Positions 9,245-33,031 of a stretch of DNA of 33,098 bases are shown here, piece by piece. The first letter of the stretch is position 1. The number at the start of each line of letters is the position of its first letter. The notes below the pieces were generated by a model, which saw nothing but the letters and a program-made list of their open reading frames with translations, had not been told where the DNA came from and did no database searches. The position numbers were made by a program, and so were the translations under genes. Source of the stretch: Lachnospiraceae bacterium (lineage in GTDB: Bacteria; Bacillota; Clostridia; Lachnospirales; Lachnospiraceae); the NCBI GenBank assembly GCA_014239155.1, contig JAAZZQ010000044.1:1-33098 (forward strand), given 5' to 3'.

Positions 9245-9574
9245 ATGTGTTTGAATGTACTCAAAGGAGGGGAATATAAACATATCAAATATCACAAATT
9301 AAGCCAAAAGATTTTGCTGAATTATGAGTGTTTCCGTAAGTATTCCAAAGCAGTAAAACAATCACTAGAAGATGCAAATACAGCATTTATGCGATTTTTT
9401 AAGAAACACTCCGCTTTTCCAAGATATAAGAAACGAATCGTAGATGAGCCAAAAATGTATTTTGTTAAAAATAACAAAAAGGACCGTCTTTGTGAACGAC
9501 ACAGGATAAAAGTCCCCTCTTTAGGGTGGGTACAATTTCCCCTAACGAAGAATTTGTTCAGGACATTATATTAA
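9245..9574 (+). pseudogene. truncated TnpB (OrfB) remnant
   Basis: A 109-codon reading frame whose middle and end align with the N-terminal part of the intact TnpB next door: SKAVKQSLEDANTAFMRFFK against SKSVKQSIMNAEKAFKRFFK, then PRYKK, KMYFVK and CERHRIKVPSLGWV against CERHRIKIPTLGWV. It stops shortly after this motif and has no RuvC-like nuclease motifs or zinc ribbon, so it cannot be an active TnpB. The first about 26 residues do not match TnpB. The divergence shows it is a remnant of a related older element rather than a copy of the neighbour. Confidence 0.75.
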
Positions 9575-9639: not shown

Positions 9640-10809
9640 TTGCTAAAGAGTTACAAAACGGAAATCAATCCAACTCCTGAACAGAAACAGATGATTAACA
9701 GAACCATTGGTGTATGTAGATATATTTATAATTTTTATCTTGCACATAACAAAGAGATATATGATAGAGAAAAGAAATTTGTATCTGCAATGGATTTTTC
9801 AAAATGGCTTAATAATGAATTTATTCCTAACAATCCAGAATATTGTTGGATAAAAGAAGTTTCTAGTAAGTCCGTTAAACAAAGCATTATGAATGCAGAA
9901 AAAGCATTTAAAAGATTTTTTAAACATCAGTCTAAATTTCCAAGGTTTAAAAAGAAAAATAAATCTGATGTAAAAATGTACTTTATAAAAACAGATTTAA
10001 AATCAATTATCCAATGTGAAAGGCACAGGATAAAGATACCTACTCTTGGCTGGGTAAGAATAAAGGAAAAAGGTTATATTCCAATAACAAAATCAGGAAT
10101 TTTAATCAAAAGTGGTTCTGTTTCCTATAAATCAGGAAGATATTATGTTTCTGTATTGGTAGAAATTCCAGAAGAGGAAAAGCCAAAGTTAAATGATTTT
10201 GGATTGGGAATTGACTTAGGTATTAAAGAATTTGCAGTTTTGAGCAATGAAACAGTTTATAAAAACATTAACAGGACACAAAGACTAAAAAAATTAGAGA
10301 GACAATTAAAAAGAGAACAACGCTGTCTTTCGAGGAAATACGAAGACTTAAAAAAGCGCAGTAAAAAGAAAGGAGAAGCTGCTAGACAGAATATCCAAAA
10401 ACAAGTGCGAAAGGTACAGAAACTTCATCAAAGAATAGATAATATTCGTACAGATTACATTAATAAATGTGTCAGTGAGATAGTGAAAACCAAACCGTCT
10501 TATGTAACCATTGAAGACTTGAATGTATCAGGAATGATGAAGAACAGGCATCTATCCAAAGCAGTTGCTGGGCAAAAGTTTTATGAATTTAGGATAAAAT
10601 TACAATCAAAATGCAATGAATTTGGAATAGAATTAAGAATTGTGGATAGATTTTATCCTTCAAGCAGATTATGTCATAAATGTGGAAGAATTAAAACAGA
10701 TTTGAAATTATCTGATAGAGAATACATTTGTGAATGTGGCTATCATGCAGACAGGGATTACAATGCAAGTCTTAATTTAAGAGATGCAGGAGCTTACAAA
10801 ATAGCATAA
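9640..10809 (+). CDS. tnpB: TnpB, RNA-guided RuvC-like nuclease of IS200/IS605 elements
   Basis: A 389-residue protein. It begins with the N-terminal helix-turn-helix-like OrfB region (KSYKTEINPTPEQKQMINRT), followed by a central Lys-rich region. The RuvC-like residues are D192 in GIDLGIKEF, E292 in VTIEDLNVSGM and D373 in DRDYNAS. A zinc ribbon is formed by C345, C348, C364 and C366 (CHKC and CEC). All three catalytic positions are present, and length fits the family. TnpB proteins use an omega-RNA from the element's right end to cut DNA next to a short motif, which helps retain the element. The start is TTG at 9640, with AGGGAGG ending 9 nt upstream; no in-frame ATG occurs before residue 33. 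Confidence 0.92.
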   Translation: MLKSYKTEINPTPEQKQMINRTIGVCRYIYNFYLAHNKEIYDREKKFVSAMDFSKWLNNEFIPNNPEYCWIKEVSSKSVKQSIMNAEKAFKRFFKHQSKFPRFKKKNKSDVKMYFIKTDLKSIIQCERHRIKIPTLGWVRIKEKGYIPITKSGILIKSGSVSYKSGRYYVSVLVEIPEEEKPKLNDFGLGIDLGIKEFAVLSNETVYKNINRTQRLKKLERQLKREQRCLSRKYEDLKKRSKKKGEAARQNIQKQVRKVQKLHQRIDNIRTDYINKCVSEIVKTKPSYVTIEDLNVSGMMKNRHLSKAVAGQKFYEFRIKLQSKCNEFGIELRIVDRFYPSSRLCHKCGRIKTDLKLSDREYICECGYHADRDYNASLNLRDAGAYKIA

Positions 10810-13807: not shown

Positions 13808-15208
13808 ATGAAAATATCACTGAAACTGTTGCTGTCTACGATTGTGGTAATGGCGTTGGCGCTTGGGCTAAGCGGTTTCTATTTTGTGAATTATGTGTTT
13901 GAGACGTCATTAAATCGAGAAGTTGGACAGGCTTCTGATGAGAGTAGCATTTTAAGTTTTGCTTTTGAGACAGCAGTTTTAAATGTGCCAGCAAGATATA
14001 AAGTGCTGCCTGACAGCACTGTAGATGAAATTGCATCAAAGCTAGAGCGGGGCGGACGCAGCACAGAACGCCTGATTAGAATTGCTGACGAACAGAAAGA
14101 GATTTTGCATATTAGTGATGGATTTGAAGCGGACAAGCGGCTTTTGCAGCAGATACAGCCAGATACAAAATCCTATCGCATTATTCATACAGCAGATGGC
14201 TATTATGTCCATACTTGTGCGGCGATTAATGCACTGGGAAGGATTTTATATCTCGAGACAATGAAAGATGTCTCAGATGTATTTACAGAGCGCGCAATGG
14301 GTTTTTCTGTCTATCGACAGATGACAATTGCGATGCTGTTGCTTGGCACAGTGATTATGCACTTTATTTCTTCTTTGCTGACAAAGCCAATTCGCCTGTT
14401 GACAAAGGCAACCAAAAGAATGACAGGTGGGGATTATGCCTATCGTGCCAGACAGGTCAGCCATGATGAGTTGGGACAATTGACTTGTGACTTTAACAAG
14501 ATGGCAAATGCGCTTGAGCAAAATATTGAGATGCTTGAGGAGGAGAATGAGGCGAAGGAAGCGTTTATGGGAGCGTTTGCCCATGAACTTAAAACGCCGC
14601 TCACTGCAATTATTGGCTATGCAGATATGTTGCGTTCACACAAACTAGACGAGGAGAAAAGCATTTTGTCCGCCAACTATATTTACACGGAGGGAAAACG
14701 GCTTGAGGCAATGTCCTTTCGGTTGTTAGATATTATTGTGGCAAAAAAAGGAGATGTAGAGCGAAGTGAGGTAGCGACATCAGAAATTTTTGATTATCTG
14801 AAAGAAATGTTTACAGATGAAAATCGCGGGATGCATTTTGTGTATCAGCCTGATAATGATATAATATATGTGGAAGTCAATCTAATCAAAACTGTGTTGG
14901 TCAATTTGATTGACAATGCCTGCAAAGCGTCGGAGCCAGGAAGTCAGATTATCGTGCGTGGAATCTCATTTGCAGAAGGGTATCGGTTTGAAGTGCAAGA
15001 TGAGGGGATTGGCATACCGCAAAAAGAACAACGCAAGATTACAAAAGCATTTTATATGGTGGATAAATCCCGCTCTAGGAGCAGAAATGGCGCCGGACTT
15101 GGACTGGCATTGTGCGCGGAAATTTTGCGGATTCATCACAGTGAACTAATGATTGAGAGTGAGCTAGGAAAAGGTTCTTGCATTGGTTTTGTGTTGGAAC
15201 GGATTTGA
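13808..15208 (+). CDS. HAMP-domain sensor histidine kinase
   Basis: A 466-residue membrane kinase. TM1 is at about 2-25 (KISLKLLLSTIVVMALALGL), followed by an extracytoplasmic sensor segment of about 150 residues and TM2 near 175-195 (MTIAMLLLGTVIMHFISSLL). Then come HAMP (LTKPIRLLTKATKRMTGGDY), a HisKA domain with phospho-accepting H259 in FAHELKTPLTAIIGY, and a HATPase with N-box VLVNLIDNACKAS, DEGIGIP and GAGLGLALC. It should phosphorylate the OmpR-type regulator encoded upstream. ATG 13808 is taken as the start; TTG 13793 is in frame but lies only just after the hairpin and has no spaced ribosome binding site. Confidence 0.92.
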   Translation: MKISLKLLLSTIVVMALALGLSGFYFVNYVFETSLNREVGQASDESSILSFAFETAVLNVPARYKVLPDSTVDEIASKLERGGRSTERLIRIADEQKEILHISDGFEADKRLLQQIQPDTKSYRIIHTADGYYVHTCAAINALGRILYLETMKDVSDVFTERAMGFSVYRQMTIAMLLLGTVIMHFISSLLTKPIRLLTKATKRMTGGDYAYRARQVSHDELGQLTCDFNKMANALEQNIEMLEEENEAKEAFMGAFAHELKTPLTAIIGYADMLRSHKLDEEKSILSANYIYTEGKRLEAMSFRLLDIIVAKKGDVERSEVATSEIFDYLKEMFTDENRGMHFVYQPDNDIIYVEVNLIKTVLVNLIDNACKASEPGSQIIVRGISFAEGYRFEVQDEGIGIPQKEQRKITKAFYMVDKSRSRSRNGAGLGLALCAEILRIHHSELMIESELGKGSCIGFVLERI

Positions 15209-15236
15209 GACAGTGCACTGGAGGAGGTGGCGGGGA

Positions 15237-16049
15237 ATGAAAAGAACAGCGCGGTATTTGATGGTTTTTGTGACAGTGGCGCTTGTGATTGCTGTGTCTA
15301 TATGGGGACCAGAAGCAATGGCGCGCTACAAGGACAAAGGGATTCTTGACAAACCACATATTGAGCAAATTGGAGAGGCAGGAGAGGGCTATCGCTATCG
15401 CATGAATGCAAATGAAAAGTTATACATTCTTTCGCAAAGTCTTGGAAGTCAAGTCCTTCCTGGGAGTGAACAGAATGCGTTGCCTTACGATTCTGGAAGC
15501 ACAGAACTTGGATCCTATGCATTTGTACAGAATTATAAAGAACCATCTGGAGATGAGATAACAGATGAACAGATTTATGCGACTTGTAATGACGGGCTAA
15601 CTACATTAAAGGAATTGAATATTCTGCCAAAGGAAGTGCGGGAAGTCAATGCAATCTCCTATGATGCAACGCTGTGTTCTGCGATTGATGTGTTGGAACC
15701 GCGCAACAATGTGGCAGTTTGGAAGCTTGAACTGTCCAACAGCCAGAAAAATGCGGACAAGGAAAATAGACTGATAGATGCCTATATTGATGCAGATGAC
15801 GGTAAAATTTATGAATTTTATGCGAGAACGTCTCTTTTGTGGGAGGAGATTGATACAGATGCTATTATCAAAGCGTGGGCAAACTATATAGGATTGGGTG
15901 CACCTGCAGTTTATGAATCGGACAACCCACTGCTAGAGACAACGCCTTTTTTTTTTTTTTTTTTTTTCTCTGGAATGGGGGAGGGAAAGACGGTTGTCAC
16001 CGTTGGCTATTATGAGGGGATTCAGGAATTGTTCTTAAAAATCTCGTGA
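15237..16049 (+). CDS. secreted/membrane-anchored protein with internal poly-T tract
   Basis: A 270-residue protein. The N-terminus KRTARYLMVFVTVALVIAVS is a signal or anchor segment. The rest is hydrophilic, alpha/beta, and was not matched to a named family; a segment LIDAYIDADDGKIYEFYAR resembles PepSY-like strands, but weakly. It has a strong GGAGGAGG site and starts 28 nt after the kinase stop, so it is the last gene of the two-component operon and may act on the kinase. A run of 21 T (15947-15967) encodes seven Phe-type codons near the end. The frame present continues into TVVTVGYYEGIQELFLKIS, which reads like a genuine C-terminus. Gain or loss of one T gives other endings of about 16-28 residues after the tract. 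Confidence 0.7.
   Translation: MKRTARYLMVFVTVALVIAVSIWGPEAMARYKDKGILDKPHIEQIGEAGEGYRYRMNANEKLYILSQSLGSQVLPGSEQNALPYDSGSTELGSYAFVQNYKEPSGDEITDEQIYATCNDGLTTLKELNILPKEVREVNAISYDATLCSAIDVLEPRNNVAVWKLELSNSQKNADKENRLIDAYIDADDGKIYEFYARTSLLWEEIDTDAIIKAWANYIGLGAPAVYESDNPLLETTPFFFFFFFSGMGEGKTVVTVGYYEGIQELFLKIS
15947..15967 (+). repeat. 21-T homopolymer inside a coding region
   Basis: Twenty-one consecutive T on the coding strand. No hairpin precedes it, so it is not a terminator. Tracts of this length are prone to slipped-strand replication errors, transcriptional slippage and sequencing error. Confidence 0.9.
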
Positions 16050-22455: not shown

Positions 22456-24378
22456 ATGGCAATGAGAATCACAACTAAGATGATGCAGAACACATCACTT
22501 AGAAATCTGAATATCAACAAAGCGCGTCAGGAAAAACTGACCAATCAGATGTCAACCGGAAAAAATATCACAAGACCCTCAGATGATCCAGTCATTGCAA
22601 TTCGCGCATTGAAACTTAATTCGTCGCTGGATAAGATTGACCAATATTATGAGAAAAATGCAGCGGATGCCGAGAGTTGGTTAAAGTTGACTGATGCGGC
22701 GATTGCTACTGTAAATACAATTTTGTCGAATGATATTAGAACAAATATCAATCAGGCTTGCAACAGCTATATGAAGGTTGAAGACCGGAAAGCGATTATC
22801 ACAAATTTGAACAATGCCATCAAGGAAATCTATTCTACAGGAAATGCAGACAGTGCAGGTAGAAGTATTTTTACAGGTTATCGGACAGATATGCCGCTGA
22901 CTATGAAGTCAGATAAATTTGAGAAAAATGTAATAACAGAACAACTTACAAATGCGGCAATCGATAAAAAGATATTTGTCAAGACAGGTGATTTAAAGTC
23001 CATCAATGAAGGAAACTTCAAAGATAAGAATACCACAGAGTATGATGTAGGAACAGAGGATATCTATAGAATTAGACTTGCATACGGTGATGTAGACATC
23101 AATCCCAAGTTGGATGCGAACGGTAATGTTGTCAAGGATGCAAATGGAAATACTGTGTATGAGTCAAACATTGATATTGGCTATATGTCAGATGCAAAGG
23201 TGCAAGGAAATAGTGCACAAATTAGTACTGGTTCAGTTTCTGCTTATGTATCTGTCGATGTGAACAAAGTACCTGCAGAAGCAGTATTCCAAATAAATGG
23301 TACAGAATATAGGTTATTGAAAGGGGAAAGCATTGATAATACATCAGCGTCAGGAGCCGGATTACCTAATAATGTGACTATTTCATATGAGGAGGATGGC
23401 ACATTCAAGATTATTGATGAAAATACAGTACCGCACGAAACAGCATCTATTGGCAGTGAGATCACAAAGGATGCCAAGGGTATTAGTGTTGTTACTTTTG
23501 ATAAGAAATTTAAAACATCATTGGAAATCAGTGGCTATTATCCGTCGGGGTCAGACGATGCAGCATATCTTTCTGTTGTGGGAAAAGATAATGCAAATGC
23601 GATTACCTATATTGCGGATACGGGAGAACTTCTTATAGGAGAAAATATCAAAGAGCGTCTCTCAAGACTTTCTTCAGATACAGAGTTGCGCGTAACTTAC
23701 CAGAAGTCTAACTGGAAAGAAAATGATTTGGACCCAGTACATTATTTTTATACAGAGCGTACTACAAAATCTGCTTCCGGCAAGGATAAAACAATTAACT
23801 ATAATGAGAATTTTCTAGAAGATCCTTCTGCAAATGGAAAGCAAATTATTGAATATGATGTAGGAAATAATCAGACCCTGCGTGTGAACACTACAGCGGA
23901 TGAAGTGTTTACTCATGATATGGGCAGAGATGTTCAGGAAGTAATTGATATGCTAAATGAATATGCGAGTCTTGAAGACAGCTATAATGCGGTTGAGGAG
24001 ATGATTAATTCAGAGAAATATTCTGGTGCTGATCTCAAAAAACTTGAGGAGCAAAAAGCAGCGTTGAATGAGGCAAAGACTAGGGTAGGAGATAAAATTA
24101 ATAAGCGTTGCCAGTCATTTTTGAAGGACTGTGACGAATATTTTAAGCGTGGGCAGCTTGCAGAGACGGATTGCGGTGCTAGAGAAGCTAGACTAGGGCT
24201 TATACAGAATCGTTTGAGTATGCAGCAGACGAATTTTGGAGAATTAGTGAGTGAGAACGAAGATGCAGACTATTCTGATTTAGTTATTCAGTTAAAGAGT
24301 ATACAGATGACTTATGATGCGGCGTTGTCTTCTATCAGTTATGTCATGCAGACATCACTGCTGGATTTTATCCGGTAA
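22456..24378 (+). CDS. flgL: FlgL, hook-filament junction protein 2 (enlarged)
   Basis: A 640-residue exported protein, about twice the usual FlgL length (around 300). The N-terminus (MRITTKMMQNTSLRNLNINK, then QMSTGKNITRPSDDP) and the C-terminus (LVIQLKSIQMTYDAALSSIS, then YVMQTSLLDFI) are clear FlgL/flagellin-type D0-D1 segments. The extra length is a central domain (about 170-480) with DANGNVVKDANGNTVYESN and beta-rich stretches, likely exposed at the junction surface. GGAGG lies 8 nt before the ATG. Confidence 0.9.
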   Translation: MAMRITTKMMQNTSLRNLNINKARQEKLTNQMSTGKNITRPSDDPVIAIRALKLNSSLDKIDQYYEKNAADAESWLKLTDAAIATVNTILSNDIRTNINQACNSYMKVEDRKAIITNLNNAIKEIYSTGNADSAGRSIFTGYRTDMPLTMKSDKFEKNVITEQLTNAAIDKKIFVKTGDLKSINEGNFKDKNTTEYDVGTEDIYRIRLAYGDVDINPKLDANGNVVKDANGNTVYESNIDIGYMSDAKVQGNSAQISTGSVSAYVSVDVNKVPAEAVFQINGTEYRLLKGESIDNTSASGAGLPNNVTISYEEDGTFKIIDENTVPHETASIGSEITKDAKGISVVTFDKKFKTSLEISGYYPSGSDDAAYLSVVGKDNANAITYIADTGELLIGENIKERLSRLSSDTELRVTYQKSNWKENDLDPVHYFYTERTTKSASGKDKTINYNENFLEDPSANGKQIIEYDVGNNQTLRVNTTADEVFTHDMGRDVQEVIDMLNEYASLEDSYNAVEEMINSEKYSGADLKKLEEQKAALNEAKTRVGDKINKRCQSFLKDCDEYFKRGQLAETDCGAREARLGLIQNRLSMQQTNFGELVSENEDADYSDLVIQLKSIQMTYDAALSSISYVMQTSLLDFIR

Positions 24379-31245: not shown

Positions 31246-33031
31246 ATGGTAGTACAGCATAATTTAAAGGCAATGAATTCCAACAGAATGTTGGGCGTAA
31301 CACAGAAAACAGTAGCGGGTTCTACAGAGAAATTATCTTCTGGTTATAAGATTAACCGCGCAGCAGACAATGCGGCAGGACTTTCTATTTCTGAAAAAAT
31401 GAGAAAGCAGATTAGAGGCTTGACACAGGCATCTGCAAACGCAGAAGATGGTATCTCCTCTGTACAGACAGCAGAAGGCGCTTTGCAGGAAGTTACAGAT
31501 ATGCTTCAGAGAATGAACGAGCTGGCAGTACAGGCAGCAAACGGCACAAACTCTGTGACAGACCGTCAGTATATTCAGGATGAAGTAGACCAACTTGTAA
31601 CAGAAATTGACCGTGTTGCAGAGACAACCAAGTTCAATGAGACTTATCTGTTAAAGGGCGATGGAACAAAGGCAACTACAAAGTCTTTAATGGAATTGCA
31701 GTAAACCCACTGTCTGCGAGGGCGATGGAACAAAGGCAACTACAAAGGCGTTTACTTCCAACTATGCTGTGACATACGCTTCAAATTTAGGTACAAACAA
31801 AGCGAATGTTGAGAAAAAGGTAAATTATACTGGAGAGTCTAATGTATACTTTGTCAATACTTCATCTGTAAAGGTAGCTAATCCGAGCATGCCAATTACA
31901 GCAGATGTAGTTAGCAAGGGTGATGATGTAACAAAGTATCTGCAAAGCACAAAGGCTGGACAGAATGGAAAATTAGACAGTGCAGCAATTAATTCTACAG
32001 CATATACAGCATTTAAGAATGTTGATATTTCAGAGGTGGAAATCGTATCTGCAACGTCTGCAACAAATGATAGCAAGCTGCTTTATATGGATGGTGTTAT
32101 TTCTGCGACAAATGACGCATATATTCTCGACACAGAGACAAATTCTGTAATCCGTGTTCAAAAAGGTCAGGATTTATCAGAGTATATGAGCATATCAGAT
32201 GATAAGTCGTCTGCATCTATGAAAGAGCAGTATAGAATGTTGGATGAGGTAGTAACTGATGACGCTTCAACCACTGCATTAAATGGAACAAGCGGTAACC
32301 TAGGGCAAACTACTTTTGGTCATAAGCTTCAAGGTACTGCTGTAAAGACAGCAGATATTCAGACAAAGAATGAATTTAAGCTTGCAGAGGAAGCAAAGAA
32401 GCTTTATGATGCGGACGGTAAGGAAGTATCTGGTGTCGCACTCAATAAGTATTTTGATGAGAATGGACAGTATACAGGTGGACTTTACTCTGATTCACAG
32501 GCAACAAAGGCTGTGTTGAGTGATAATGATCCCAATGTAGATGCAACAAAGAAGGGCGAGGATAAGATTGGCTCTTACATTACCAAGAACTATGCGGATG
32601 TAACAGCAGACTTAAGCTTTAGTCTTCATGTAGGTGCAGACTCTGACAGAACAAACAAGATTCAAACCAACATCCAGTCAATGTCTTCCGCAGCACTTGG
32701 CGTTAATAAGCTTTCCAGCAAATTGGTAGGTATTGTTGATGAGTCTGGTGACAATGCGACAGACGCAATTGATGTAATTGCAGAGGCACTTCAGAAAGTA
32801 TCCACACAGAGATCTGCTCTCGGTGCAGTTCAGAACCGTTTGGAGCACACAATTAAGAACTTGGATAACGTTGTAGAGAATACAACAAGTGCAGAGTCTG
32901 CTATTCGTGATACAGATATGGCGACAGAAATGGTAAAATATTCTAACGCAAATATCCTTTCACAGGCAGGACAGTCCATGTTAGCGCAGGCAAATCAGTC
33001 TAATCAAGGCGTACTTTCTATCTTAGGATAA
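31246..33031 (+). pseudogene. flagellin copy 2, interrupted by a 64-bp insertion
   Basis: The first frame (31246-31704) gives a flagellin N-terminal D0-D1 segment of 146 residues, then SLMELQ and a stop. The flagellin reading resumes downstream in another frame and runs to 33031, ending with the normal C-terminal domain ([20 protein letters not shown]). Between them a 29-bp sequence is repeated with a 64-bp period. Removing one 64-bp unit leaves 1722 nt, an uninterrupted 573-codon gene reading GTKATTKAFTSNYAVTYASN across the joint, just as copy 1 reads [20 protein letters not shown]. The downstream part has no start codon with a ribosome binding site, so as written only a short N-terminal fragment would be made. 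Promoter and leader remain intact. Confidence 0.9.
31655..31747. repeat. 29-bp direct repeats with 64-bp period inside flagellin 2
   Basis: Copies at 31655-31683 and 31719-31747 are identical and begin AGGGCGATGG. They flank a unique 35-nt stretch (31684-31718) that contains an in-frame TAA at 31702-31704. Both copies have the same codon phase relative to the flagellin frame on their own side, so exchange between them restores the gene. Confidence 0.95.

Follow-up and report, generated by a model that had tools for sequence, protein, structure and literature searches.

The split flagellin 2 gene and its counterpart in a sister genome

The window analysed here is a stretch of 33,098 nucleotides, the entire contig C34 of the draft genome G000 (4.57 Mb in 89 contigs, 98.4% complete, 4.0% contamination). 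On its forward strand, the flagellin 2 gene is split by a perfect 29-bp direct repeat, whose left copy (31655-31683) and right copy (31719-31747) enclose 35 nucleotides (31684-31718). The distance from the insertion site to the contig end is 1.4 kb. The two copies are identical over 29 bp and are separated by 64 bp from start to start, as a first-pass annotation made from the sequence alone had stated. A 29-bp repeat pair arose in 0 of 100 shuffles. The 5′ piece of the gene (31246-31704) is an ORF of 152 amino acids with a Flagellin_N match (E 8.7e-44), and the 3′ piece (31769-33031) is an open frame of 420 amino acids starting from a GTG at 31769, with a Flagellin_C match (E 2.2e-25). The annotation had divided the gene into pieces of 146 and 420 residues; the 420-residue end holds, while the first ORF is composed of 146 flagellin codons and six insert codons followed by TAA. 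Because the 64-bp unit shifts the reading frame and brings a stop codon six codons into the insert, flagellin 2 would be inactivated and its full-length product no longer made. The genome has 11 matches to the Flagellin_N family, one of which is far weaker (61 bits, at position 22468 of the window). Thus, the loss of one flagellin is probably tolerable to the host.

Two other places in the window are worth recording. An IS605 OrfB/TnpB-like gene of 389 amino acids lies at 9640-10809 and is immediately preceded by a shorter ORF of similar appearance (9245-9574). An ORF at 15183-16049, which has no Pfam match, carries eight consecutive Phe codons near its end and may reflect a homopolymer frameshift or an assembly slip.

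The counterpart of flagellin 2 in the sister genome G016 was found on contig C51 (CASJPF010000051.1). The two genomes are 99.6% identical over 3322 aligned bases to the left of the site and 100% identical over 1380 bases to the right. At the site, G016 has a single 29-bp copy and no 35-nt insert, and its gene is open over 573 amino acids, the length that the annotation predicts for flagellin 2 after deletion of one 64-bp period. The lesion had been described as a single and apparently recent one in an otherwise undamaged gene, which agrees with these identities. The annotation had also proposed a comparison with sister strains; the G016 gene is indeed intact with undamaged flanks, but the 64-bp unit is absent there. 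By parsimony, and with one close relative compared, the insertion appears to be recent and to have occurred on the G000 side. In the same G016 contig (C51:18675-24124), two more flagellin genes share 98% identity with flagellin 2 across the first 431-438 bases and only 77-79% over the remainder. This difference suggests gene conversion at the 5′ ends of the flagellin genes.

Source of the 35 nucleotides and the host CRISPR-Cas system

When up to three mismatches were allowed, the 35-nt sequence was found in two places of its own genome, and both are exact: the window and positions 316-350 of contig C86. The donor copy on C86 is directly preceded by TCA, and in the window the end corresponding to the TCA side faces the left 29-bp copy. 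The donor lies inside a toxN-like gene on the opposite strand, which encodes a ToxN homologue of 172 amino acids (PF13958, E 9.3e-33). It was revealed that neither junction of the insert has microhomology, as read from the window and the donor sequence. The term duplication-type insertion, given in the annotation, is therefore half right, since the 29 bp duplicate flagellin sequence but the 35 nt have an outside source.

C86 is 8083 bp in length, and its GC content is low (0.333 versus 0.403 in the window). The ToxN homologue adjoins a GTPase-centred conflict system; its neighbours are DO-GTPase1, DO-GTPase2, GASH and GAP1-N1 proteins and a calcineurin-like phosphoesterase. Since C86 shares its final 116-141 bp, without a mismatch, with ends of contigs C64, C79 and C89 of the same assembly, C86 probably belongs to the G000 bin. 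With the donor in the same bin, the inserted fragment would be self or resident DNA. The 35-nt core is absent from the other 37 of the 38 genus genomes searched. By DNA comparison, a good relative of the toxN region was found in one genome of the genus (G010, 78% identical) and a short weak one in G004; by protein comparison, some relative occurs in 15 of the 38 genomes, G000 included. One phage record encodes a ToxN that is 41% identical to the C86 protein. No plasmid match was found at an E-value of 1e-5 with the first 8000 of the 8083 bases, the donor 35-mer does not occur in IMG/VR, and C86 has no match, at up to eight mismatches, to any of the 137 spacers of the two arrays (G000 and G016). 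I read C86 as an accessory region.

The first-pass annotation had also raised translational bypass of the T4 gene 60 type, in which ribosomes would hop from a take-off site to an identical landing site and full flagellin would still be made. Identical sequences do flank a stop codon here. However, the intact sister gene needs no bypass, the 35-nt core is not conserved, and the exact outside donor explains the origin of the insert more simply. Bypass is thus left with almost no probability.

Is there a machinery in this host that inserts such fragments? A type I-B locus was found in G000 with PADLOC models, encoding Cas6b, Cas8b, Cas7b, Cas5b, Cas3b, Cas4b, Cas1b and Cas2b. Only one cas1 gene was found in the genome, and it lies inside this CRISPR locus. 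The array begins on contig C25, and the same repeat continues on contig C55, giving 50 repeats of 30 bp (with up to four mismatches). The 48 full spacers are 34 nt (5 spacers), 35 nt (7), 36 nt (23), 37 nt (12) or 38 nt (1) in length. The flagellin unit (29 + 35 = 64) has the shortest period of the native array. The G016 array has 89 spacers; 22 of them, at the leader-distal end, are identical to G000 spacers, while the leader-proximal spacers of the two genomes differ. Thus, spacer uptake continued after the split of G000 and G016.

The annotation favoured phase variation, in which the 64-bp unit would serve specifically to turn the gene off and on, its loss and return depending on slippage or recombination at the 29-bp copies. 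Such a switch is compatible with the perfect direct repeats and the undamaged flanks, and the switching of one gene could be tolerated given the 11 Flagellin_N matches, the far weaker one included. However, the core does not derive from flagellin and can be traced to an exact donor behind TCA, whereas a slippage unit requires no donor, and in its dimensions the insertion matches a single repeat-spacer unit. No conserved switch device was seen either, since the unit is not in G016 and the core is not in the other 37 of the 38 genus genomes. I regard phase variation as highly improbable.

A few further observations were made on the host CRISPR repeat. The G000 array is broken at a repeat (C25:34979-34992), where C25 terminates in GATTAATAGAAACA. 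The start of C55 (positions 1-165) has about 138 bp with identical copies in C32, C33, C40 and C48, followed by TAGAAACATGAG. From these ends, the array seems to have been interrupted by an insertion sequence that duplicated 8 bp of its target. Outside any array of G016, two copies of the host CRISPR repeat lie 12 nt apart (C18:46527-46598; L135 2528-2599). They are flanked by genes for an HTH repressor and a T5orf172 protein, and an AntA-type antirepressor is encoded close by. I take a prophage-borne RNA anti-CRISPR to be one possible reading of this pair. Another off-array pair in G016, in which one of the copies is degenerate, lies 23 nt apart behind an HTH gene (C49:11900-11982; L136 2401-2483). 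A solitary repeat copy with three mismatches has the same surroundings in both genomes (G000:C41:111375-111404 and G016:C5:23790-23819).

The triplet before the donor was compared with those before the protospacers of the arrays. The IMG/VR scan of seven spacer cores gave no match for five and matches for two; these two G000 spacers match IMG/VR contigs exactly, and both protospacers are preceded by TCA. Nine distinct protospacers with up to seven mismatches were obtained from the sequences examined, after copies with a repeat at the 5′ side had been filtered by a script and one row (the array of another genome, L141) had been removed by hand. Their flanks are TCA (4), TCT (1), TCG (1), TAA (2) and TGA (1), so that TCN is found in six of the nine and TAA or TGA in three. 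When both arrays were used to search phage records, a single weak match was obtained (E 0.3 and 0.5). The donor TCA is the same triplet that flanks the newest matched array spacers of the host. The PAM alone is weak evidence, since a given triplet is expected by chance at a frequency of 1/64 at one end and of 1/32 when both ends are considered. The type I-B PAM lists in the available part of PMC8482600 include TCA and TCN. For type I-B interference in C. difficile, TCN PAMs are less effective than CCN according to the available part of PMC8406132.

Probable spacer integration in the flagellin gene and other candidate origins of the unit

Several properties of the unit agree with CRISPR adaptation. 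The insert has a length found in 7 of the 48 native spacers (range, 34-38 nt). The target duplication is 29 bp and exact, and the native repeat is one base longer (30 bp). The target is a flagellin gene outside the array, and its empty site is seen in G016. An exact donor lies behind TCA, the triplet of four of the nine protospacers, six of which have TCN. Cas4b, Cas1b and Cas2b are all present, with a single cas1. On the other hand, the insertion site does not resemble the leader-repeat junction: its score of 9 is reached by 45.6% of 4243 positions. Such likeness is a tendency of off-target integration rather than its defining criterion. The unit does not look like a functional array either, since the flanking copies are flagellin sequence and the repeat search with up to three mismatches omits the site.

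How common are such repeats? The control was performed on 167 records (1,117,940 bases, overlaps included) that had been fetched for flagellins and arrays, and therefore its count is not a genome-wide rate: 108 distinct exact direct repeats, 22 bp or longer and with periods in the range 56-77, were found. Among them, 12 contain the host repeat core and 92 share an 11-mer with the CRISPR repeats of G000 or its relatives, so that 104 of the 108 are CRISPR-like. The rest are three tandem repeats (two in L061 and one in L072) and the flagellin unit.

Other mobile elements were considered as the origin of the unit. An IS or transposon was rejected because 35 nt cannot accommodate both element ends and a transposase gene; moreover, a target duplication of 29 bp is not known for any such element. 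A casposon-like origin was set aside, since the sole cas1 found lies in the CRISPR locus.

A templated insert and a duplication would also be expected if replication or repair had switched to the toxN-like gene as template for 35 nt and then resumed on flagellin 2, 29 bp upstream of the point of departure. However, neither junction has the microhomology expected of such template switching, and it predicts neither the spacer length nor the near-repeat-length duplication nor the TCA. Template switching is extremely unlikely. Could the 64 bp be present in no cell at all? An assembly or binning artefact, which the first-pass annotation had listed as a third option, might be suspected from a draft of 89 contigs with 4% contamination, a site 1.4 kb from a contig end, and a sole close relative that lacks the unit. 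However, a random misjoin would need to pick a spacer-length piece of another contig exactly behind TCA and to produce a target duplication of near-repeat length. An artefact is thus very unlikely and is not the best account. Taken together, the interpretation in that annotation is partly supported.

The points against integration are the 29 bp instead of 30 bp, the lack of leader-repeat likeness, the three of nine protospacers without TCN, the weakness of the PAM when taken alone, the place of the donor in the same bin (self or resident DNA), the 4% bin contamination, and the single close relative. Nevertheless, the pattern seen, a PAM-flanked insert of spacer length within a target duplication of repeat length, is the one that Cas1-Cas2 integration produces. 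Thus, I conclude that a natural off-target integration of a CRISPR spacer very probably inactivated this flagellin gene.

The integration may have proceeded as follows. The Cas4-Cas1-Cas2 proteins of the type I-B system would have captured a 35-nt fragment, trimmed at TCA, from the toxN-like gene of the low-GC accessory region. The prespacer ends would have been joined to opposite strands of flagellin 2 at 31655 and 31683, 29 bp apart, instead of to the array. Repair would have filled the 29-nt gaps to give the 29-bp duplication. I infer both this enzymology and this order of events. Since the PAM-side end is at the left copy, the left side would take the role of the leader if the native orientation holds. 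Molecular rulers place the second cut in types I-B and I-E, according to the available part of PMC6895254; thus, a duplication one base short at a foreign site is plausible.

Since the 29-bp copies are not CRISPR repeats, Cas6 should yield no crRNA from the unit, and no working crRNA would be expected from it. C86 persists with the protospacer and TCA intact, which fits the absence of a crRNA. Self-targeting spacers are expected to be toxic, as stated in the available part of a review (PMC6990116). The event may have been an unsuccessful attempt at immunity to an incoming element; alternatively, self DNA may have been captured, with survival possible because the array was missed. As a consequence of the insertion, recombination between the 29-bp copies could possibly delete the unit.

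Known precedents and the meaning of the finding

Off-array spacer integration has been reported under Cas1-Cas2 overexpression (Nivala, Shipman and Church 2018, Nat. Microbiol. 3:310-318, as cited in the available parts of PMC11788318 and PMC9456107). The likeness is that adaptation proteins integrate a spacer at a genomic place outside the arrays. In contrast to those events, which were found under overexpression at sites near IHF motifs, the flagellin case was found in an unmanipulated genome with a type I-B system, and a protein gene is broken. Integration at non-CRISPR DNA is also described for the type II-A Cas1-Cas2 of Streptococcus thermophilus in vitro (available part of PMC6895254) and for a minimal type V-C Cas1 (cited in the available part of PMC13034035). 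The type II-A off-target sites are probably half-site and leader-repeat-like, whereas the flagellin unit is a full-site product without such likeness. Ectopic acquisition in Streptococcus likewise places a new spacer away from the leader end, but, in the available part of PMC7999890, inside the CRISPR array and not in a protein gene. Self-targeting spacers, as covered in the available part of PMC6990116, also match the genome of their own host; unlike them, the flagellin unit is off-array and is bordered by sequences other than CRISPR repeats.

Among the titles and abstract beginnings of the literature searched, no flagellin case and no natural type I-B case of off-target integration was recognised. 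The available part of PMC8616872 has nothing on off-target integration under the terms searched, and flagellin is mentioned in the available part of PMC13034035 only for a fliC expression plasmid and in a reference. The term neo-CRISPR does not occur in the literature searched. The overexpression study reportedly also lists natural candidates. Thus, the phenomenon is of a kind already known from experiments, and the flagellin case is a new and unusually complete natural example in type I-B. It is unusual that the donor, the TCA, the duplication, the empty site and the damaged gene are all available in an unmanipulated genome.

Going further, off-array integration might be a recurrent natural mutagen and at the same time a safe sink for self-matching spacers, revertible via the direct repeats and feeding variation of the surface flagellin; I consider this rather unlikely. 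If the sink reading is true, a piece of a resident island does no harm within a flagellin gene, whereas the same piece stored in the array would kill the cell or eliminate the island. The island is still present with the protospacer and TCA intact, as this reading predicts.

The case bears on how frequently CRISPR adaptation damages its own host in nature and on whether misplaced spacers can give rise to new arrays. The donor, the PAM-like flank, the duplication of near-repeat length, the empty sister site and the adaptation genes together allow such an event to be recognised. Since a structural gene was broken, the very probable integration described here would represent a real cost of off-target activity to the bacterium. 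It would also leave a signature that can be counted in genomes: exact direct repeats, each about 30 bp long, that enclose a core of spacer length which recurs elsewhere behind the PAM of the host.
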